Shown: positions 15,018 through 30,969 of the stretch, in pieces | Position numbering within the stretch: position 1 is the stretch's first letter | How the letters are laid out: each line of letters begins with the position of its first letter | IMG/VR virus record: IMGVR_UViG_3300031651_000010 | Span: 1-34,536 of that record | DNA from: a virus | Direction: 5' to 3' (one strand) | DNA length: 34,536 bases | The notes under the pieces: model-generated | Database searches by the model: none | Told to the model about the DNA's origin: nothing | The model's input: the letters and a program-made list of their open reading frames with translations, nothing else | Translations under genes and position numbers: made by a program

Positions 15018-15656
15018 TTAATCACCTCTCTTTAAAAGGTCTTTACCTACCCAGCCATTATTTAATCCTGCTGCAAAAGTACTTCTATTAATTTTATATT
15101 TAGAACACCATTCTATAACTGTCATAGTAATAAGACCTATAGTAACTAATCTATTAGTGCTTTTGTTTAACTGCTGGGCTTTATTGCTTATAAATCTACA
15201 ATTTGAAGGCTCATAATTCCCATTATTATCTATTCTATCAATTATTAAATCTTCTGAATATCCGTTTTCCACAGCCCAATTATAAAAATTATTAAAATCA
15301 TCCCATTCTTTACAAACTTTAATTCCCTTAGCGCCATAATTTTCATAACGGCTGCTCTTCGGATTACTACATCTTTGCCTCATGGCTGTCCATCTTTTAT
15401 GTATTTTTGTTTCACACATCCCATGTTTAAAAGCCCTTTTTTTAACAGCCTCTTTTTTATGACATCCACAAGATTTAGATTTTAATGATCTTAATTGGTC
15501 TGCTCTTACACTTCTTACTTCACCGCATTTACATTCACAAAACCAATAGCTGTGCCTATTAATGCTTTTAGAATCATCATAGCCTATTACGCTCCAATAA
15601 TGAAAGCTTTCACCTATCAAATTTTTTAAATCTTTTCTTCGCTTTATATTTTGCAT
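15018..15656 (-). CDS. Free-standing HNH-type homing endonuclease, 212 aa
   Basis: The N-terminal third has a zinc-finger-like pair of cysteine motifs (CECKCG and SCGCH). Residues about 85-165 carry the phage HNH-family pattern: RWTAMRQRCSNP, YENYGAKGIKVCKEW, F-NWA-NGY, then IDRIDNNGNYEPSNCRF. A C-terminal helix-turn-helix-like segment (EWCSKYKINRSTFAAGL) may bind DNA. It cuts DNA to spread its own gene. The start is ATG 15656 behind GGAGGTGTAGCACT; the upstream in-frame codons lack an RBS. Start and RBS lie in a perfect hairpin. It is placed between the major capsid gene and a small structural gene, with no intron core around it. Confidence 0.88.
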   Translation of the reverse strand: MQNIKRRKDLKNLIGESFHYWSVIGYDDSKSINRHSYWFCECKCGEVRSVRADQLRSLKSKSCGCHKKEAVKKRAFKHGMCETKIHKRWTAMRQRCSNPKSSRYENYGAKGIKVCKEWDDFNNFYNWAVENGYSEDLIIDRIDNNGNYEPSNCRFISNKAQQLNKSTNRLVTIGLITMTVIEWCSKYKINRSTFAAGLNNGWVGKDLLKRGD

Positions 15657-15690
15657 AGTGCTACACCTCCATATTAAGTATAGCACTATG
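15654..15690 (-). promoter_or_regulatory. Start-codon-sequestering hairpin of the HNH gene
   Basis: On the transcript CATAGTGCTA (15690-15681) is the exact reverse complement of TAGCACTATG (15663-15654). The second arm contains the ATG of the HNH gene and the 17-nt loop contains its GGAGGTG Shine-Dalgarno. Such a hairpin would block ribosome access. Phage T4 homing endonucleases such as I-TevI are controlled by RBS-masking hairpins of this kind (established knowledge); here the role is inferred. Confidence 0.75.
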
Positions 15691-15701
15691 CCCCATCATT
15701 G

Positions 15702-16598
15702 TCAAGCACCGTCATTTACAATTATTCCTACGTTCGGTAGACAACCCGAATTGTACATTCCTATACTGTTGAAATACATATTTTTAGTCCAAATCTTGTC
15801 TTTGTCATTTTCAAATTCATTTTTCATGAACCACTGCATTAAAATGTGTTCATATCTTCTATCCCACATGCCCCACTGCGTAGTGCTTGAAGCATATGTA
15901 CTATAATGCCAGCTAAGTCCTGGAAGTACATTTTTAGTGTTTGAAAATTCTTTTGCTTGGTTTACACTATTATAAAGCTGTTCTACAGTAAACTGATTTT
16001 TATAGTGAGTGAAGCCATCTGAAGGTTTACACTTCATAAACCCGCCCGCATGATTCTTAAAATCGTAAAACATATTCATCATTGTATAATGATTATCCGG
16101 GTCTGTTATTGTTGAAGCTGCAGCATAAGTATCATTTAAAGCCGCTGAATTAACTAGTGGATGGCTATTAGAAGCCAAAGGCACGCCATCAGCTAAATTT
16201 ACAGCTGCAGCATTATCCCACCAGTAAACCGCAACATCTTCTTCAAATTCTACCATAGTTCTAGCCAATTCCTTAGCTTTTATACTGTTAACTACGCCAT
16301 ATAAGTCATACTTAATAGCCTCCATAGAATGTGAAAAACCGTTCGCTATAGTTTGGTTAGTAATCTCAGTCTGGTAGGCCTGGATTACTTTACCATAGTT
16401 GATAGGTCCGCCTTCTGGTTTAACTTCGGCAGCCTTCAAGTTTCCCATACTATCATAAGTTTCGGTCCTCTTACTTGCTTTCTTGAAAGCAGTGTAAGCC
16501 GGCCATTCTTTTGGATAGGCATTAAAATTCATCGTAAAAACTTCTTTTTGGCCCATTTCTAGCATTCTTAAAATATCGGTTGTTACATTAAAAGCCAT
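15702..16598 (-). CDS. Major capsid protein, 298 aa
   Basis: Signals of an HK97-fold capsid protein of the gpT-like kind: an N-terminal helix-rich segment (ILRMLEMGQKEVF), a middle long helix (GVVNSIKAKELARTMVEFEEDVAVYWWDNAA), then GVPLASNSHPLVNSAALND, the A/SxxHP block seen in many such capsids. The C-terminal strands (FTHYKNQFTVEQLYN, MWDRRYEHILMQWFM) follow. It lies three genes after the portal and one small gene after an acidic scaffold-like gene, the expected order. The ATG at 16598 follows AAAGGAGTGTAATGTA. Length is normal for the family. No protease gene is recognised nearby. Confidence 0.85.
   Translation of the reverse strand: MAFNVTTDILRMLEMGQKEVFTMNFNAYPKEWPAYTAFKKASKRTETYDSMGNLKAAEVKPEGGPINYGKVIQAYQTEITNQTIANGFSHSMEAIKYDLYGVVNSIKAKELARTMVEFEEDVAVYWWDNAAAVNLADGVPLASNSHPLVNSAALNDTYAAASTITDPDNHYTMMNMFYDFKNHAGGFMKCKPSDGFTHYKNQFTVEQLYNSVNQAKEFSNTKNVLPGLSWHYSTYASSTTQWGMWDRRYEHILMQWFMKNEFENDKDKIWTKNMYFNSIGMYNSGCLPNVGIIVNDGA

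Positions 16599-18999: not shown

Positions 19000-19000
<1 letters not shown>
18629..19000 (-). CDS. Zinc-ribbon-like hypothetical protein, 123 aa
   Basis: Two cysteine pairs, CSHC (about residues 47-50) and CLAC (about 68-71), separated by about 17 residues, form a likely zinc ribbon. The rest is helical and polar with no membrane segment. ATG overlaps the portal stop as TAATG, with GGAGGTG inside the portal's last codons, so the two genes are translationally coupled. Small zinc-ribbon proteins next to portal genes are common in phages but rarely assigned. Confidence 0.6.
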
Positions 19001-21094
<2,094 letters not shown>

Positions 21095-21102
<8 letters not shown>

Positions 21103-21326: not shown

Positions 21327-21989
21327 TTAATTATAACACTTAATCGCCAAGGCTTTCAATATAAGCTCGGCGTGTACGAAATCGGCTTCTGTATCAATAT
21401 CTATCGACTTGTATTTTTCCATTTCAAATATTACAGGTTCTTTTTCAAAAATACTATTAGTATCTAAAAATAGACCTACTTTAAATATATAAATACTAGA
21501 ATTTCTATAAAAATAATAATTATCTTGACTTAGCCCTATATTTATTCCCCCGGCATTATATAACTTAGCTAAAAAATCAAGTTTATAAACAGAAACTAAA
21601 GAGTCCTTTTCGCTCTGCTTAAATTTAGCCAGGGCATTATTTATATCTTTAGTCTCACGCAGCGGGCAAGTGGGCTGCAGCAAACAAATAACATCATCTT
21701 TACCTAAATCTTTTAGGTCAATGATATGTTTTATATATTTATTTGCTGCAGCCTCACTTGTACATAAAGGCAGAGGCCTTTTAATATACTCAACTTTAGA
21801 ATTTAATAAATGTTCCACTTGAACTCTTTTATAATCAGTACTAAGTATTATTTTTTTTAAGTGACTCGCACTTGCCGCATCAATAGTGTATTTTATTAAT
21901 TCCTTACTTGCTATTTCTCGAATATTTTTATTCGGGATTCTTACACTCCCTATTCTTGCAGGTATTAGTCCCACTATCACATTAACCAC
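21327..21989 (-). CDS. neuA: CMP-nonulosonate (sialic-acid-type) cytidylyltransferase, 220 aa
   Basis: Activates a nonulosonic acid with CTP to give the CMP-sugar donor. The N-terminal signature IPARIGSVRIPNKN (residues 9-22) keeps the R-x-x-S-x-R-x-P-x-K pattern of the CMP-sugar synthetase family, although the usual ARGGSK reads ARIGSV. LLQPTCPLR (103-111), the NSSIYI strand (163-168) and DIDTEADF (197-204, with the metal-binding aspartates) are also in place. IPNKN is closer to PseF/LegF/NeuA-type enzymes than to KdsB. Length is normal. The GTG start follows the previous stop by a base. NeuC-like and NeuB-like genes lie in the same cassette. Substrate (Neu, Leg or Pse type) cannot be told. 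Confidence 0.85.
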   Translation of the reverse strand: MVNVIVGLIPARIGSVRIPNKNIREIASKELIKYTIDAASASHLKKIILSTDYKRVQVEHLLNSKVEYIKRPLPLCTSEAAANKYIKHIIDLKDLGKDDVICLLQPTCPLRETKDINNALAKFKQSEKDSLVSVYKLDFLAKLYNAGGINIGLSQDNYYFYRNSSIYIFKVGLFLDTNSIFEKEPVIFEMEKYKSIDIDTEADFVHAELILKALAIKCYN

Positions 21990-22553: not shown

Positions 22554-22865
22554 CTATAAAATATTGCTGCCAGGAAACTGCTGTTTGTACTTTTCAGATA
22601 TTGCAGCCATCTGGAGTAATTCACTAAAACATTTTGCTATAAGATTACCTAAGTCTATATTGTAGTTAGCCGCCCCCTCAAAATTATCATTTTTTATATA
22701 ATCCCAGATATCTTCCAGGCAGCTTTCTATATTTTCTAATTCTTCCTGAGCTTCTTCGAACTCTTCTTTGAATACCGCATAAAATTCGTGATTACTTGCA
22801 AAAGCTTTCCCATACTTTTCATTATTTTTCTCTAAGATTTCAAGTACTATCTCTCTAATTTCCAT
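22554..22865 (-). CDS. Small acidic helical protein, possible MazG-like relative, 103 aa
   Basis: All-alpha, strongly acidic protein. The central FYAVFKEEFEEAQEELENIE recalls the ExxE helices of the all-alpha NTP pyrophosphohydrolase (MazG-like) superfamily, and the C-terminal CFSELLQMAAISEKY resembles its last helix. Similar small proteins occur in Gram-positive phages. Key metal residues cannot be confirmed, so the function is tentative. ATG follows AAGGAGAATTACT and overlaps the NeuC-like gene's end by 11 bp. Confidence 0.5.
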   Translation of the reverse strand: MEIREIVLEILEKNNEKYGKAFASNHEFYAVFKEEFEEAQEELENIESCLEDIWDYIKNDNFEGAANYNIDLGNLIAKCFSELLQMAAISEKYKQQFPGSNIL

Positions 22866-23892
22866 AGTAATTCTCCTTTATCTTTTTTAGTATTTTTTCA
22901 CTGGCTAGACCATTTCCAAAAGTCCCATCATAAGTGATTTTTGTCTGCTCAAAACCTATAAACTTTTCGCATTCATCCATTATAGCTTTATAGTCCATAG
23001 GCACTCGATATACATTACTTGCCGCCTCTCGACCTTCTTGCCTATTCCCTACGAGTACATAAGGAATACCTATAGCAGCCCCTTCTTTAATACCCGAACT
23101 GGTATTACCTAATAACAGGTGGGCACCGTCTAGTAATTTAATATATTCATCCGGCTTTACATCCTTTATGAATTTTATCCCATTAGCCTTAAGCTTATAA
23201 ATAAGGTCTTTACTTCCCGGGTCGACATTGGGGTTAACCCATATTATATCTATTCCTGTACTCAAAGTTTTTATTACTCTTATTAAATCCATATAGGCTT
23301 CACCAAGTAAAGGGTTATAAAGCACTACCATATAGGGATTTAGTGTAGGTGGTTTCCTTCTTTCTAAAACTATGTACACGTAATCGACGGTCGGTGAACC
23401 TACCTGATATACATTACTATGTACAAAAGCTAATCTCTCATAAGCCAATCTAGTTGTGGCAAAATGTATACTAGCTATTTCTGATATTATATATCTCACC
23501 TTATTATCAAATCCACCCGACCATTCGCCACCTTCCGTATGCAGTATATGCACACCGTTAAAAAAGCAAGCCTGGGCCATACCCAGGCATTCATACCGGT
23601 CACCGTGAATAAGACAAAAATCGTATTTACTATTGCTTAAATAATTACTAGCATGGTCCATTACTATACTAGTAGTAACCCCCATATTAGCTGGCGTGTC
23701 CTTATACATTAAGCCGTCTACCTTATAGTCAACATAAGTTTCAAAACCACCTAAGTCGATATATGTACCCGAAGAGGCTAGAAATATTTTGAAATCCAGC
23801 CAGTCTTCGTTTTTCTGCATTTCCTTAAGGACCGTTATTAATCTACCAAAATTAGCTCTAGAACCAATAAATACTAATCCTTTTACTCTCAT
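22855..23892 (-). CDS. neuC: Hydrolysing UDP-N-acetylglucosamine 2-epimerase-like protein, 345 aa
   Basis: Enzymes of this family convert UDP-GlcNAc to ManNAc plus UDP, the first step of sialic acid synthesis (bacterial NeuC/SiaA). Seen here: GSRANFGRL (10-18), HGDRYE (96-101), TEGGE (119-123), a conserved aspartate at 129 in GGFDN, GNTSSGIKE (262-270) and GNRQEGRE (282-289), all in family order over the two Rossmann domains. Odd points: the usual HP of the uridine/sugar-binding loop reads YNP (Asn193), and the usual RHAIT segment reads RYIIS. Activity is therefore likely but unproven. RBS AGGAGGTAAGTA just after the split gene's stop codon. Confidence 0.85.
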   Translation of the reverse strand: MRVKGLVFIGSRANFGRLITVLKEMQKNEDWLDFKIFLASSGTYIDLGGFETYVDYKVDGLMYKDTPANMGVTTSIVMDHASNYLSNSKYDFCLIHGDRYECLGMAQACFFNGVHILHTEGGEWSGGFDNKVRYIISEIASIHFATTRLAYERLAFVHSNVYQVGSPTVDYVYIVLERRKPPTLNPYMVVLYNPLLGEAYMDLIRVIKTLSTGIDIIWVNPNVDPGSKDLIYKLKANGIKFIKDVKPDEYIKLLDGAHLLLGNTSSGIKEGAAIGIPYVLVGNRQEGREAASNVYRVPMDYKAIMDECEKFIGFEQTKITYDGTFGNGLASEKILKKIKENYYGN

Positions 23893-23902
23893 TACTTACC
23901 TC

Positions 23903-24892
23903 CTATATAAGGTTATTATTTAAATTATGAGAGCATTCGCCTATAGTTCCTTGTATACTGGCAAAATTCTTATGGATAAAGCTAACTTCATCATTAAGTA
24001 ATTTTATATTCATAAATACTCTTTTTTCTTCCTGCTCTCTTTTAATTATCTGGTTATTTAGCTCTTTGCCTATATTGTCTAGTACTTCCTTATTGCTCAT
24101 TTCCACTTCATTGACTTGTTTAATTATACCTTCTCTGGCTTTTAAATAGTCTTCCAATTTATCAGGGGCTTTTGATAAGAAGGCAAGTAAACCTGTATTA
24201 GCTTCGGCTATAGCCTCTACCTTAGCCCTTTCCTGCTTTAACTCAGTTATTGTATTGTTGATTACGGCAGCCTGGGTTGCTAGTTCTCTAGTTAGCTTAT
24301 CTTTAAAAAATTCAATTTCCGCTAATCTTTTTTCCATATCCTGTTGTCTAGCCTTTAAATCTTTAATACGATCCTTCGCTCTGAATCTTGGCGCATTATC
24401 TGTATCAAAGCCATAATCCTTATAGTGTTTACACAATTCAGAAGAATTAGGAATTAATAATTTTATACCTAATCCGGCAGCCAGACCGATAAAGAATTGA
24501 CAACTCGCCCGCTGAAAGTTATATTCTGTATTGGCCGCCATGTCCACACCGTATATGTGAATTTCCTCATAGCCCATGTATATAGCCAAAGCTATCATCC
24601 AGGAAATTTGATTGGAATAATCAGTATACTTACCACCTATATCATCGATAATGAAGCTTTCATCTATCTTATTCTTTATTTGCGCCCTAGGAAAACCAAG
24701 TGAAGTCGGGTATTCATCCCAATGCTGCTGAGTCACCAGGGGTAACTTCATTGTTTTTAAAAATTCCTGGTGGGTCTTATTCTGCTTCGATGGGGAATCT
24801 TTTATGTTGTGTATTTCAAACCATACATCGTAACGGGGTTTGACTTTATGCTCGGCCGCTTCTTTTCCGCTATATTTGTACAATTCGTTAAT
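23903..24892 (-). CDS. 3' exon of an intron-split Rossmann-type gene (DUF115/GT42-like), residues 87-415
   Basis: Predicted second exon: 990 nt starting at ATT (24892), giving INELYKYS and continuing with RYDVWFEIHN, TQQHWDEYP and SNQISWMIALAIYMGYEEIHIYGVDMA. That last block matches in layout the core of DUF115/Maf flagellin glycosyltransferases and GT42 sialyltransferases (A-x-A-x-x-x-G-Y-K/E-E-I-x-L-x-G-x-D). Phage members without known function also have it. Residues past about 270 are a long coiled coil ending in a polar tail. The ATG at 24895 has no RBS and belongs to the intron end. With a NeuA/B/C set around it, a nonulosonate transferase role is a hypothesis. Confidence 0.75.
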   Translation of the reverse strand: MNELYKYSGKEAAEHKVKPRYDVWFEIHNIKDSPSKQNKTHQEFLKTMKLPLVTQQHWDEYPTSLGFPRAQIKNKIDESFIIDDIGGKYTDYSNQISWMIALAIYMGYEEIHIYGVDMAANTEYNFQRASCQFFIGLAAGLGIKLLIPNSSELCKHYKDYGFDTDNAPRFRAKDRIKDLKARQQDMEKRLAEIEFFKDKLTRELATQAAVINNTITELKQERAKVEAIAEANTGLLAFLSKAPDKLEDYLKAREGIIKQVNEVEMSNKEVLDNIGKELNNQIIKREQEEKRVFMNIKLLNDEVSFIHKNFASIQGTIGECSHNLNNNLI

Positions 24893-24962
24893 CATTTATA
24901 TTCGATACAAAGCGCTAATTTGTATCCGTTCTCTTGTGAACTGCTATATATTACTATATAGA

Positions 24963-25577
24963 TTAGACCATATCTTCATCCTTTCGGATGCTCTCCGTTT
25001 CCATCTGCTTAGATGTACTCCCTTTCGGGATGGTCGTTGAAGTTTCATATTTCCATACAAAGGACCTTAAAGTTTTTCTTTCTTTCCTACAGCAGGAAGC
25101 TATCATACCTTGAGAAAAGCCTGTCTTTCTTGATGCTTCATGTGTAGAAGGGTATATTTTTATTAAATCACCTTTCAAGTCATACTGTCCTACTTTTTTT
25201 GATTTAGCATTATTTCTATTATCACATTTTAAAACTTTAAATTTATGTTTAATATTCTCACTAGCAGTAACCCATTCTAAATTTTTACAGTTATCATTAT
25301 CTTTATCCCCATCTTTATGATTAATTTGTTTTAATTTAGAATGTCCTTTTACAAATGCCAAACCAACTAACCTGCAAACCCTTAAATTCGAATAAATTCC
25401 ATTTTTACTTAATCTTATTAAGTTATACCTATTCTTATCTTTATATATATTCAATAACTTAGGCAGTCTAAATCTATTTAAATGACATTTTTTTTCATAG
25501 CATATCCTTCTAACTTCACCCTCATTTGAAACTTCATAAAGTCCTTCATAATTTTTTATAGATTTCCATATAGTCAT
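24963..25577 (-). CDS. Intron-encoded NUMOD4-HNH homing endonuclease, 204 aa
   Basis: Domain order: NUMOD4 at residues 1-25 (IWKSIKNYEGLYEVSNEGEV), HNH core about 65-115 (RLVGLAFVKG, then NHKDGDKDNDNCKNLEWVT), and a NUMOD1-like DNA-binding tail about 128-178 (KVGQYDLKGDLIKIY, THEASRKTGFSQGMIASCC). It cuts intronless alleles of the host gene so that the intron spreads. It starts at ATG 25577 behind AAAGGAGGAATAGAT, inside a hairpin. The last 24 codons overlap the P7-P8 core of the group I ribozyme, and the stop comes right after the P7 3' strand. One copy only of the intron is visible. Confidence 0.92.
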   Translation of the reverse strand: MTIWKSIKNYEGLYEVSNEGEVRRICYEKKCHLNRFRLPKLLNIYKDKNRYNLIRLSKNGIYSNLRVCRLVGLAFVKGHSKLKQINHKDGDKDNDNCKNLEWVTASENIKHKFKVLKCDNRNNAKSKKVGQYDLKGDLIKIYPSTHEASRKTGFSQGMIASCCRKERKTLRSFVWKYETSTTIPKGSTSKQMETESIRKDEDMV

Positions 25578-25600
25578 ATCTATTCCTCCTTTTAGATATA
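25575..25600 (-). promoter_or_regulatory. Start-codon-sequestering hairpin of the intron HNH gene
   Basis: On the transcript ATATCTA (25599-25593) pairs exactly with TAGATAT (25582-25576), with one further U-G pair; the second arm contains the ATG. The 10-nt loop AAAGGAGGAA exposes the Shine-Dalgarno. Same design as the hairpin of the other HNH gene at 15654-15690. Confidence 0.65.
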
Positions 25601-25728
25601 TGTTATACTAAATGAACTATAAAGTCAATATGCTTACTTGCTGATTGTCCTCAACATTACTTGGTAGGAGTTCCCAGCAGTTAAAAGAGTTTTTAACTCG
25701 CCATTTCTGACAAGTGGAGCATACCTTT

Positions 25729-25986
25729 ACCCCATATATCAAATTCTGTATTCTGCCATGGCGCTTGGTACCAACTAGGTGCAAAGCCCACTATAGCACA
25801 CTTATTCTTTTTTCTAAGCTTCATTATTTCTTTTGGCAAAGGTATCCGGGAAAGCTGTACTGGGCCTTCTTTTACGGTATTTAAATCCACTTTCTTTACC
25901 GGCTGTATAGCAGTTTTAAGCTGCTCTTGTATCGGCTTAGCCTTCTGTTGTTCATTATAAGTATCTGCAATATTTTCTTTATTCAT
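25729..25986 (-). CDS. 5' exon of the intron-split Rossmann-type gene, residues 1-86
   Basis: Predicted first exon: ATG 25986 (MNKENIAD) behind AAGGAG, ten bases upstream; upstream in-frame ATGs overlap the RBS. The exon is 258 nt (86 codons) and ends in GGT at 25729. The first 60 residues are polar and probably unstructured. Then KKNKCAIVGFAPSWYQAPW-FDIWG gives the first Rossmann strand and loop, continued by the 3' exon. Reading on past the splice site gives only eleven codons and a stop, the mark of intron sequence. The start overlaps the upstream 56-aa gene by 8 bp. Confidence 0.75.
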
Positions 25987-26149
25987 TGATATCATTCTCC
26001 TTGTTCTCAAGTTGTTCTATACGTTCTAGCAGCTTATTTATTTCAGTCCTATTATCACCGATATCATTCATAAGGTGACTTAGCATTTGGCTTTGGGTAT
26101 CCAGCCTTTTTCTAATCTCCTCTATATCCACTATTAGTTTATCAATCAT
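25979..26149 (-). CDS. Small coiled-coil protein, 56 aa
   Basis: Short gene starting MIDKLIVDIEEIRKRLDTQS and ending IEQLENKENDINE, strongly heptad-patterned with Leu/Ile/Met repeats, so probably an oligomeric coiled coil. ATG 26149 overlaps the end of the upstream 71-aa gene by 8 bp, and its own stop overlaps the start of the split gene by 8 bp. The chain of overlaps, together with the coding content, supports translation by coupling; the RBS itself is weak. Function unknown. Confidence 0.6.
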   Translation of the reverse strand: MIDKLIVDIEEIRKRLDTQSQMLSHLMNDIGDNRTEINKLLERIEQLENKENDINE

Positions 26150-26357
26150 TTTTATCTTTACCTTCTTTATCTTTTTTCTTTATAATTTCTTGTAATCTTT
26201 CCATTTCCTTTTTATCTGTGTTTGCGTCCTCCTGTTTCTTTCTCCATAAAACATCTTTATCAGCCATAGCTTCAAGCCTCCTTAGCCCTGCGTCTATTTT
26301 CTTGTGCGTTTTTAGCATTGTCTCAAATATCTCGACAGCATGTTCCCAATTATCCAT
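26142..26357 (-). CDS. Small charged helical protein, 71 aa
   Basis: Starts at ATG 26357 (MDNWEHAVEIFETMLKTH), overlapping the NeuB-like stop as TAATG with GAGGTG in front. Lys/Glu/Asp-rich with a predicted coiled coil over most of its length (MERLQEIIKKKDKEG). No cysteines and no membrane segment. It lies between the NeuB-like gene and the 56-aa coiled-coil gene in an overlapping string. Function unknown. Confidence 0.6.
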   Translation of the reverse strand: MDNWEHAVEIFETMLKTHKKIDAGLRRLEAMADKDVLWRKKQEDANTDKKEMERLQEIIKKKDKEGKDKND

Positions 26358-27088
26358 TACTCCACCCACCTCTTTTTATAGATTTCAATAGAGTTTTTGT
26401 ATTTTACCCAAATCATTAGCTTTTCTAATTCATCCGGAGTCATTGACATATGGTGGTCCCTGCCAGGTAAGTATTTAGATAAAGTAAAATGCTTTTCGAC
26501 AAATTGCACCCCTTTGATAAAAGCTTTTTGAGCTGCTATAATGCCTAAAGTATGGTCCGAGAAGCCATCAAAAGTAAGCATTTCGCTATAATTTATATCG
26601 CTCTCTTCTGTAGGGTACCTGGAGATACAATACATAAACTTAGCCTGCTTCTTATACCTATCTATGGTTTTAGTTATTTCAATCTTAGTATGCATTCCGG
26701 TACTTATCCACACTTTACTCTTACTTTTTACAACCGCATCAATAAGTTTATAATTTAGCATGTCTGGAGAAGCGATTTTTAATGAGTACAAGGCATTAAA
26801 ATTTTTAAGGTTAATTAATACATCCGGGGTAAAAATAGTGAAAATAGGGTGTATTGCGTACGTGTTACACTTATCTTCAATAAGCTTTAAGAAGTATTCA
26901 GTAATTTTACATTTTTCCAAATATCTTTTATAATCTTGACAGCCTGGATAATCGGGATTTAGTTTTTCTGGGTTATATAGTTGGAATTTTACAAAGTTAA
27001 CCTGATTATCATAGGCAGTCTTTAGCATTTGTAGTAAAATGTCCTCATTTCCACAATGATTATTGCAAAAATCCAATATTAATTCCAA
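26357..27088 (-). CDS. neuB: N-acetylneuraminate synthase-like protein (NeuB TIM barrel only), 243 aa
   Basis: NeuB-family enzymes condense ManNAc (or a related hexose) with phosphoenolpyruvate to a nonulosonic acid. Seen motifs in order: NNHCGN (9-14), VKFQ (33-36), KIASPD (104-109), STGM (129-132), GFSDHT (175-180), EKHFTL (198-203) and PGRDH (208-212), covering the whole barrel active site. Family members are about 335-350 residues with a C-terminal SAF domain that completes the active site in the dimer; this protein stops right after the barrel. It also lacks the usual short N-terminal extension. TTG start behind GGGGGTAAGTAAA. It could be a minimal enzyme or need a partner. Confidence 0.88.
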   Translation of the reverse strand: MELILDFCNNHCGNEDILLQMLKTAYDNQVNFVKFQLYNPEKLNPDYPGCQDYKRYLEKCKITEYFLKLIEDKCNTYAIHPIFTIFTPDVLINLKNFNALYSLKIASPDMLNYKLIDAVVKSKSKVWISTGMHTKIEITKTIDRYKKQAKFMYCISRYPTEESDINYSEMLTFDGFSDHTLGIIAAQKAFIKGVQFVEKHFTLSKYLPGRDHHMSMTPDELEKLMIWVKYKNSIEIYKKRWVE

Positions 27089-27336: not shown

Positions 27337-27564
27337 TTACTTACCTCCTTCTTTATCGCCGTACTTTATTTTTTCATATGTTATGCTAAAAGGGCAGCAG
27401 GGGCAAAAATAGGCTTCCATCTGCACATCTTTTAGTAAGTAAGTCCCGCAATCAGGACAGTATTTTACTTTTTTAACTGTCCTGACTGCGCTTTTTATAT
27501 CTAAAATTTCCTCATGTTTGGGCTCTAAATCTACTTTTTTATTCTTTTTAAAAAAATTAAACAC
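27337..27564 (-). CDS. Zinc-ribbon protein, 75 aa
   Basis: A basic start (FNFFKKNKKVDLEPKHEE) is followed by CPDCG and CPCC separated by about 18 residues, a likely zinc ribbon. The chosen start is GTG 27564, which overlaps the dehydrogenase stop as TAGTG and has GGAGGTT eight bases upstream; an earlier in-frame TTG would overlap the RBS. Function unknown; it is one of four small zinc-binding-type proteins in this window. Confidence 0.6.
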   Translation of the reverse strand: MFNFFKKNKKVDLEPKHEEILDIKSAVRTVKKVKYCPDCGTYLLKDVQMEAYFCPCCPFSITYEKIKYGDKEGGK

Positions 27565-28772
27565 TATTTTAACCTCCAATACTTATAATCTAAAGGATAG
27601 TCATTTACTATACCAGGCAAATCAATCAAGACTCTTTTATTGTCTGGTAAGTCTTTTTTGTATAAGTCACATAGCCCTTTATCCTCTATAAATTCTTGAA
27701 CCCATTTACTGGCTGTACCTATAATAACTACATCGCACTTGCCCGACTCCATCTGGCGCCATCTGCCTTTTGGTTCCCAGATATCAACCTTTGTGCCCCA
27801 CTTTATAAGCTCGCTTTGTAAATCGAAAAGTCTTGAACCTTTGCAGGAGTCCGCATTATCTTTATAGGTTACACCCATAATCAATATATCTTTTCCCTTA
27901 AAGGACTCATTCATTAAGCTGTGTATGACCCTAACTATATGATTAGGCATCCACTCATTAACTCTTCTTGCCATTGTTAATATATCAGTGCTGGGCTCTT
28001 CATATTCACTAAAGCCAGAAGCCCACAAATAATAAGGGTTAACCGGTATACACTGACCGCCCACAAGACCTGGCTTAAAATTCAGCCAGTTCCATTTAGT
28101 TCTGCATAATTTGAATACTTTATTGTGGTCGATTCTATCAAGCCCTAAAGTCATTACACACTCATTCATGAAGGCAATGTTAACATCTCTTTGGCAATTT
28201 TCAATAAGCTTTGCTGCTTCGGCCTCCTGGGTAGTATCCGCTTTTACTACCTTATCGCAAAGGAAACAATAAAGATTTGATATCTTCAAGTAAGATACCC
28301 GGCCGCACCCAGCCACGATTTTTGGTGTATTTTGAAAAGTATTCAATTTATCACCCGGGTTTATCCGTTCTGGTGAAAAGCCCATATAAAAATCTTCTCC
28401 ACAGGTAAATCTTGTTTGGTTTTCTAAATAGTCCTTATATTTTTCAGTAGTTCCCGGACCTACCGAAGATTCAATTATTATCGTTTTTCCTGTTAAAATA
28501 GTAGAAATTTCTCTAAAAATATCATCAAAAGCTGAATAATTCGGGGTTTTATCCTCATTTAAGAGGGTAGGTAAGCATATAAATATATACTCACAATCCC
28601 TTAATTCCTGGATACTTTCTCTTCTTATGGCTATAATAGGCAGGGCCCCTATACAAAGCCGGGCATCTATAAAAGGATCATAATATTCTATACTAAAGTG
28701 TAATTCATTATCTTGCATAGCCTTTGCCAGTTCTTGTCCTACATAGCCCATTCCTATAATACCTATTTTCAT
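27564..28772 (-). CDS. UDP-N-acetyl-hexosamine dehydrogenase (UDP-ManNAcA/GalNAcA type), 402 aa
   Basis: UDP-sugar dehydrogenases oxidise the C6 hydroxyl of a nucleotide sugar to a uronic acid with NAD. Seen: Rossmann GMGYVG (7-12), ESSVGPGTTE (101-110), SPERINPGD (133-141, the WecC/TviB/WbpA kind of motif), Lys188 and Asn192 in AAKLIEN, catalytic Cys241 in GGQCIPVNPYYL, and TYKDNADS in the C-terminal domain. The usual GGHC reads GGQC. Length is close to the family's 400-430. SPERINPGD favours a HexNAc substrate over UDP-glucose. ATG overlaps the upstream stop as TAATG behind GGGAGGTAAAC. In this cassette it would make a UDP-HexNAcA. Confidence 0.88.
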   Translation of the reverse strand: MKIGIIGMGYVGQELAKAMQDNELHFSIEYYDPFIDARLCIGALPIIAIRRESIQELRDCEYIFICLPTLLNEDKTPNYSAFDDIFREISTILTGKTIIIESSVGPGTTEKYKDYLENQTRFTCGEDFYMGFSPERINPGDKLNTFQNTPKIVAGCGRVSYLKISNLYCFLCDKVVKADTTQEAEAAKLIENCQRDVNIAFMNECVMTLGLDRIDHNKVFKLCRTKWNWLNFKPGLVGGQCIPVNPYYLWASGFSEYEEPSTDILTMARRVNEWMPNHIVRVIHSLMNESFKGKDILIMGVTYKDNADSCKGSRLFDLQSELIKWGTKVDIWEPKGRWRQMESGKCDVVIIGTASKWVQEFIEDKGLCDLYKKDLPDNKRVLIDLPGIVNDYPLDYKYWRLK

Positions 28773-30102: not shown

Positions 30103-30969
30103 TTACTCTACCTTCAATTTTTTTAATAATCTATTAATTAAATATAAATCCGTTAACTCTCTTGATTCTACACAAGAACCCGCTTTATGTTTTGTTACTA
30201 TGTAATTATCACTTCTAGCTAATGTCAATAACTCATTTTTTGTTTCTACATCGTAAGAGTCCATAACATCAATATAGAAGCCTCTTATTTGGTTAGACCT
30301 GGCTGCCTGGATAAGCGCTTTTCCGTCTACTACTGACCCCCTACTAGTATTTATAAACCAGGGTCTTAAAACCATATTTTTAAATTCTTTATCACCTATA
30401 AGATTTTCTGTCAATTCATTAGCAGCGGCATGTACTGAGATAATATGGGACCTATAAAGAAGTTCGTCCATATCTCTACACCTATTACTTTCAGGCCATA
30501 CATTATCGAATATAGTGTATTGAACATCATAGAGTAATATATTAGCCCCTAAGCCAGATAGCTTTAAGGCTAGTTGCTGACCTACCCGGCCCGCACCAAT
30601 AATCCCAACCGTTTTGCCCCTCACTTCATAACTCTTATGCAAAAGTGATCCTTCAAGACCTATTTTTAATAACTTTAAAATACCCCATAACGAAGTTTCC
30701 GCAGTAGAGTGCACATTATCGTACAGCCACCTTGGGGAATCAAGATATAATATATCAGGTTTATGGAATACACTTTTTTTAAGATGATTTATATTAGTGC
30801 AGGGACACACTATATATTTTAGGCTTGGAAAATTATCAATATTGAAGTGTTCGAAATGGACATATAAAATATCGGTATCTTTTGTACTAGTCGTTGTGCT
30901 TATACCCTTTAAATCCAACAGCGCTTTAGCTTTTACCGATAAACTTTCATTTAATAGATACAATTTCAT
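30103..30969 (-). CDS. D-isomer-specific 2-hydroxyacid dehydrogenase family protein, 288 aa
   Basis: NAD-binding GAGRVG at 125-130 and the INTSRGSVVDGKAL block (206-219, with catalytic-type Arg210) identify the family, which interconverts 2-keto and 2-hydroxy acids. HKAG (His261) takes the position of the usual PHIAG. The expected Glu in the DV-EP segment is not clear (here DVMDSYD), so the catalytic triad may be incomplete. The N-terminal catalytic half is diverged and short. It opens the transcript after two promoters and is followed by the amidase. ATG lies twelve bases after AAAGGAGG. The substrate is unknown. Confidence 0.8.
   Translation of the reverse strand: MKLYLLNESLSVKAKALLDLKGISTTTSTKDTDILYVHFEHFNIDNFPSLKYIVCPCTNINHLKKSVFHKPDILYLDSPRWLYDNVHSTAETSLWGILKLLKIGLEGSLLHKSYEVRGKTVGIIGAGRVGQQLALKLSGLGANILLYDVQYTIFDNVWPESNRCRDMDELLYRSHIISVHAAANELTENLIGDKEFKNMVLRPWFINTSRGSVVDGKALIQAARSNQIRGFYIDVMDSYDVETKNELLTLARSDNYIVTKHKAGSCVESRELTDLYLINRLLKKLKVE

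Follow-up and report, generated by a model that had tools for sequence, protein, structure and literature searches.

On the minus strand of the bacterial virus record IMGVR_UViG_3300031651_000010 (IMG/VR), which was analyzed over its whole length of 34,536 nt and is referred to here as the window, a gene whose relatives have a predicted sialyltransferase-like fold is split by a group I intron within a small gene cassette for a sialic-acid-type sugar (Table 1). The order on this strand is dehydrogenase, NeuB, split gene, NeuC-type epimerase, NeuA/PseF-type cytidylyltransferase and portal, with other ORFs between some of them. The split gene is termed GT in the following, a name that is itself the hypothesis.

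Table 1. Features of the GT locus and other genes of the window mentioned in the text.
Position	Strand	Feature	Support
15018-15686	-	HNH-like ORF (by eye) directly after the major head gene	Pfam gave only a weak DUF5358 match
15702-16598		Capsid gene
19000-21102	-	Portal gene, with a run of about 20 glutamines near its end
21327-21989	-	NeuA/PseF-type CMP-nonulosonate cytidylyltransferase	CTP_transf_3 E 8.6e-18; PseF 98.8 bits (cut-off 205.7); KdsB-type models 47.5 bits or less
22855-23892	-	NeuC-type UDP-GlcNAc 2-epimerase	Epimerase_2 E 2.3e-44; NeuC_NnaA 191 bits (cut-off 235.9)
23903-24892	-	GT exon 2: rest of the transferase domain (to about residue 247) and a C-terminal helical region	Alignment with relatives; helices in the models of relatives
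24893-25728	-	Group I intron, 836 nt, inserted in the WGxN motif	Rfam RF00028; junction agrees with relatives
24944-25114	-	Intron_gpI match within the intron	39.2 bits, E 2.5e-8 in a 951-base search
24963-25577	-	Intron-borne HNH homing-endonuclease-type ORF, 204 aa	NUMOD4, HNH_3 and NUMOD1 above cut-off
25716-25733	-	P1-like helix spanning the 5' splice site, exon GGGGU with intron GCUCC, U.G at the cut	Sequence and fold
25729-25986	-	GT exon 1 (86 codons, ends in WG)	ATG at 25986, AAGGAG about 10 nt upstream; residues 62-86 align with relatives
26142-26369		Small ORF between GT and NeuB
26357-27088	-	NeuB-type nonulosonate synthase, short (243 aa)	NeuB E 9.4e-38; NeuB_NnaB 121 bits (cut-off 399.65)
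27564-28772	-	NDP-sugar dehydrogenase	TIGR03026 over cut-off
30103-30969	-	2-hydroxyacid dehydrogenase	2-Hacid_dh_C E 1.7e-35; also upstream of neuB in four related contigs

The joined reading frame is open for 415 aa plus stop, whereas without splicing exon 1 stops after 11 more codons (...WGKGMLHLSEMAS, then stop). The splice sites were assigned by us on the basis of the U.G pair at the 5' cut and the terminal G of the intron, both of which are group I hallmarks, and the resulting junction WG|INELY agrees with the uninterrupted relatives L043 (FDIWGINELYLQ) and L025 (FEIWGLNELYKL; relatives and their contigs carry L numbers, virus records G numbers). The Rfam match lies below the gathering score of 50, and a search of the whole window at the gathering score found nothing, although the ORF insertion may lower the score; P1, the 3' catalytic core (AGGAUGAAGAUAUGGUC) and the HNH ORF are present. 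The joined protein carries CAIVGFAPS at residues 63-71, WGINELY at 85-91 and IALAIYMGYEEIHIYGVDMA at 186-205. The observation made in the preliminary description, namely an intron-split gene for a 415-aa protein with these motifs lying between neuC-like and neuB-like genes, was thus confirmed, with one small ORF between GT and NeuB. All three biosynthetic genes of the cassette score above their Pfam cut-offs, but below those of the corresponding NCBIfam equivalogs. The NDP-sugar dehydrogenase next to the cassette was not found in the syntenic contigs and may act on a sugar of its own.

Relatives of the Spliced Protein

Direct searches of deposited phages gave little: tblastn of the joined protein, its core and an exon-2 stretch against 50,697 phage records returned no match, and searches for related loci with the joined protein and with the NeuC returned none, while the terminase as query gave one distant contig and the NeuB of the window found two phage records. 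In contrast, a DNA pattern for the 12-residue core motif G[FY]xEIx[LIM]YG[VI]DM retrieved 41 stretches from 2.9 million virus contigs, 40 of which encode a protein matching the joined protein by phmmer (E 1e-80 to 6e-15), so that the joined frame is not a chance product. An alignment found 189 relatives, of which 80 were kept. The invariance of the search motif is by construction, but this does not hold for the residues conserved elsewhere, which the window protein keeps: G67, W85, N88, H114, P154, N180, S183, E209, Y210, Q213, R214, S216, G228, P234 and Y246.

None of 31 members examined matches a PHROGs family at E <= 0.01. A relative (L005) used as query found one phage record, and a single named phage, Microcystis phage Mvi-Yong1342-1, has a distant relative next to the terminase (L289:19905-20708; XAN61349.1). 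This protein is annotated as type 11 methyltransferase, but its ORF matches the GT profile at E 1.8e-52, and a misannotation is therefore probable. Among 84,980 prokaryotic genomes, searched with a slightly stricter pattern, one hit was found, on a 3.9-kb contig that carries a capsid gene. The family is hence essentially viral as far as these searches reach. Literature searches, which did not cover preprints and most subscription journals, returned no paper whose title or opening abstract lines describe a phage nonulosonate transferase; three apparent leads contained the terms only in reference lists or author names (PMC6292376; PMC8451122; PMC7003362).

The intron interrupts WGxN next to N88, and relatives L006 (4314-5636), L014 (3735-5291) and L033 (6474-8000) carry intein-like insertions right after the YGVDM motif, supported by matches to intein models and, for L014, to a DnaB intein structure, with LAGLIDADG in L033; L026, which is identical to L014, was not scanned. 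Inteins in a glycosyltransferase-type gene look unusual. Two kinds of self-splicing element thus sit in two highly conserved motifs, as is usual for elements that target indispensable sequence, suggesting that the enzyme matters to these phages.

Predicted Fold and Profile Similarity

Structure models were computed with AlphaFold for two uninterrupted relatives, L043 (phmmer E 1.1e-80 to the window protein; pLDDT 80, domain about 95) and L025 (2.8e-76; pLDDT 89, pTM 0.77), and not for the spliced window protein. In the Foldseek search with L043 the first 15 rows are CstI/CstII chains (E 2.3e-6 to 2.7e-4), and with L025 only CstI/CstII are found at E <= 1e-3. VIA-align of L025 ranks Maf (5mu5) at Z 11.2 (158 aligned, 3.3 A), Cst-I at 11.1 (165, 3.6 A) and CstII at 11.0 (159, 3.6 A), followed by HPPK at 9.8 (143, 3.1 A), whereas for L043 the values are Cst-I 11.1 (165, 3.7 A), CstII 10.8 (160, 3.8 A), HPPK 10.7 (149, 2.9 A) and Maf 10.4 (159, 3.2 A); overall, CstI/CstII align at Z about 11 over 150-169 residues. 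SteA also appears in the fold lists and was set aside as a more distant match. A fold unrelated to GT-A, GT42 or MptE-like proteins had been named in advance as a result that would speak against a transferase, and the models instead show the anticipated fold. At the sequence level, hhalign of a family profile against a 158-residue CstII fragment gave a probability of 89.5% (P 2e-6, 27% identity), as opposed to 0.1-0.7% for four other window proteins (2-hydroxyacid dehydrogenase, NeuC, NeuA and NDP-sugar dehydrogenase).

No curated Pfam or NCBIfam model reaches its cut-off. The MptE-like model (PF01973) is matched by 12 of 31 members at E <= 1 (best 0.0081) and by the window protein at 13.2 bits against a cut-off of 34.6, while the CST-I model (PF06002) is matched by 2 of 31 (best 0.0021) and not by the window protein. 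Coiled-coil hits of Pfam, NCBIfam and PHROGs to residues 258-400 were taken as low-complexity matches. The active site of CstII comprises Asn31, Tyr156, Tyr162 and His188. Asn31 aligns with the N of WGxN, but the region of Tyr156-His188 was aligned only by hand, where it is seemingly replaced by A205, Y210, Q213 and R214, with Ala205 in place of Tyr156 and Tyr210 in place of the catalytic His188; whether the CstII active site is conserved is left undecided by this comparison. The family is therefore considered a new phage family on the GT42/Maf fold and not a member of GT42 or Maf by strict criteria.

With Cst-I and CstII of Campylobacter jejuni, the GT family shares the predicted fold, a KKVxIxGxxPS start, FDxxxxNxxY, a MxAxAIxxGYxEIxxxGxD core and the CMP-nonulosonate context. 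It differs in being a phage gene with an added helical C-terminus and a conserved EYxxQR-S where CstII has its His region by the hand alignment, and no acceptor has been shown. With the Maf flagellin glycosyltransferases (PF01973/Maf_flag10, DUF115), which use CMP-Neu5Ac and CMP-Kdo and modify Ser/Thr of a protein (PMC11339370), it shares the predicted central-domain fold, but there is no room for the N-terminal Rossmann-like domain of the three-domain Maf architecture, as only about 60 residues precede the domain in the window protein and the first strand of L025 is at residue 16; nor is the gene linked to flagellin. In mycobacteriophages, sugars are reported on capsid and tail-tube proteins (Freeman 2023, cited in PMC12691614 and PMC12619734), while here a CMP-nonulosonate pathway sits with the transferase and a virion target is unproven. 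Finally, the intron resembles phage group I introns with HNH endonucleases in its RF00028 core and NUMOD/HNH ORF, but interrupts a glycosyltransferase-type gene.

Gene Neighborhood

The five closest relatives all have NeuB, CTP_transf_3 and Epimerase_2. In four of them (L025, L058/L043, L059/L009 and L060/L039) the order dehydrogenase-neuB-GT-neuC-neuA-portal is that of the window, whereas in the fifth (L017/L061) the GT follows the capsid gene and the neu genes lie elsewhere. In two sets of GT-bearing records, NeuB (PF03102) was found in 10 of 41 and 13 of 47 and CTP_transf_3 (PF02348) in 14 of 41 and 21 of 47; Epimerase_2 was found in 8 of 41 and was not sought in the second set. After exclusion of G010, whose protein (L012) failed phmmer, from the 88 records, NeuB is present in 23 of 87, the cytidylyltransferase in 35 and either in 38, and among the 22 records of 30 kb or more the counts are 16, 19 and 20. 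Of 32 control records picked by a random 15-mer, used because a dUTPase motif proved too strict (one hit), none carries NeuB, CTP_transf_3 or the GT, 11 of these being 30 kb or more. The GT-bearing records are related and partly near-duplicates, so that the Fisher values calculated for these counts overstate independence. The frequent presence of the gene in phages that never carry NeuA, NeuB or NeuC, which had been set out beforehand as counter-evidence, was not observed in the main among records of 30 kb or more, 20 of 22 of which have NeuB and/or a cytidylyltransferase.

Exceptions nevertheless exist: the complete Microcystis phage Mvi-Yong1342-1 has no NeuB profile hit and no annotated neu gene, and G057 (33 kb) carries neither NeuB nor cytidylyltransferase. 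Conversely, of 80 virus records picked by a classical NeuB motif only 4 have the family (4 of a first 50, one of them weak at 2e-6 and one already in the GT set, and 0 of a further 30). Phage NeuB therefore mostly works with other partners, while long records with this GT mostly carry parts of a nonulosonate pathway. All 15 GT records with a cytidylyltransferase but no NeuB (about eight distinct groups by eye) have it within 1,045 bp of the GT, in a distance table that covers 34 of 35 cytidylyltransferase records, since the place of the GT in G034 was not known. Six of these enzymes match PseF best (69-139 bits, below cut-off), which points to a CMP-activated donor. Kdo as an alternative product found no support, as the KdsA family (PF00793) occurs in 0 of 50 GT-set records without NeuB.

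Of 105 immediate neighbor ORFs, 87 were scanned, leaving out six neighbors of L025, L059 and L060 already recognized as NeuB/NeuC and 12 doubtful, mostly opposite-strand ORFs; L098 and L130 contributed no ORF. The commonest Pfam families are head-tail connectors (Phage_connect_1, 7), cytidylyltransferase (6), scaffold DUF4355 (5) and capsid (3), and a few neighbors are tail-spike or pectate-lyase-like proteins. In six contigs that were inspected, with at least three capsid families and without a systematic count, a capsid gene lies zero or one small gene upstream of the GT (L104, L015, L083, L068 and L291) or close upstream (L061).

Proposed Function and Acceptor

Taken together, predicted fold, profile similarity and gene neighborhood indicate that the gene most likely encodes a phage-specific CMP-nonulosonate transferase built on the GT42/Maf fold and followed by a helical region, to which we assign a probability of roughly 0.78. 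The suggestion in the preliminary description that the gene is a candidate nonulosonate transferase (GT42/DUF115-like) and that the cassette would then be a complete make-and-attach system is therefore supported. The computations themselves establish the predicted fold of two relatives, the conserved residues and the conserved gene order, whereas the biochemical route is inferred from them: NeuC would turn UDP-GlcNAc into ManNAc, NeuB would condense it with PEP to a nonulosonate (most simply Neu5Ac, because no genes for legionaminic or pseudaminic precursors were seen among the cassette genes), NeuA would activate it with CTP, and the GT would move it from CMP to an acceptor. CMP-Neu5Ac transfer was not assayed, and no activity data exist. 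In this view, the group I intron must be spliced out before active enzyme can be made.

The leading candidate for the acceptor is a hydroxyl on a virion head protein, modified in the cytoplasm during late infection as Maf does to flagellin. This step remains tentative and by itself is rated somewhat less likely than not, since no acceptor was identified and a place in the head operon may only mean late expression. It is favored by the repeated position among head genes together with the scarcity of the family in prokaryotic genomes. If correct, a virus-specific family would sialylate the phage's own head, making a CMP-nonulosonate from host UDP-GlcNAc and placing it directly on capsid proteins, a Maf-like system for capsids instead of flagellin. 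The assignment gives a specific, testable function to a phage protein family without PHROGs match and predicts phages with sialic-acid-type sugars. On the virion, the sugar would bear on adsorption, phage clearance and immune recognition, and on the host, on superinfection exclusion; the enzymes would be small cytoplasmic tools for attaching nonulosonates.

Alternatively, the same enzyme class could act on a host-surface glycan (LPS, capsule or wall polymer), cloaking the infected cell to block attachment of rival phages or re-adsorption of progeny. Known GT42 enzymes act on LOS, as named in PDB entries, phage LPS/capsule genes including NeuA have been interpreted in this way (PMC5332604), and the few tail-spike or pectate-lyase-like neighbors would be compatible with it. 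This reading is nevertheless considered less likely, as the genes sit in the head operon between terminase and portal or next to the capsid gene, the near absence from prokaryotic genomes makes lysogenic conversion unlikely, and the closest fold matches include Maf, a protein O-glycosyltransferase. Phage DNA as acceptor, with the nonulosonate decorating a hypermodified base, appears very unlikely: although phage glycosyltransferases hypermodify DNA (cited in PMC12619734), no nucleotide-hypermodification gene was recognized among the cassette genes searched, and we know of no CMP-sugar DNA transferase.

The fold alone would not separate a transferase from a pyrophosphokinase, but the neighborhood does. 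An MptE/thiamine-pyrophosphokinase-like enzyme, or one that modifies the CMP-sugar, could share it, given the HPPK (8sd5, the pterin pyrophosphokinase of M. jannaschii) values, Z 9.6 for TPK and the MptE-like name of the weak Pfam hits. However, Foldseek ranks CstI/CstII first in both models, aligned identity is 21-24% to CstII but 12% to HPPK, and the gene is adjacent to a CMP-sugar synthetase, so that this alternative is regarded as improbable. It is likewise very unlikely that the split gene is dead and the cassette decaying, as the low Rfam score might suggest, because both exons are open and keep the conserved residues of the family, P1 and the 3' core are present and the neighboring neu genes are open.

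Some records carry more than one member of the family. Two GT-family genes occur in one record in L113, L122, L117 and L109, and in L113 and L109 (G069) one of them lies beside the cytidylyltransferase, possibly representing transferases for two acceptors. In L090, L091 and L092, two consecutive GT-family ORFs are found, the first of which is a short form.
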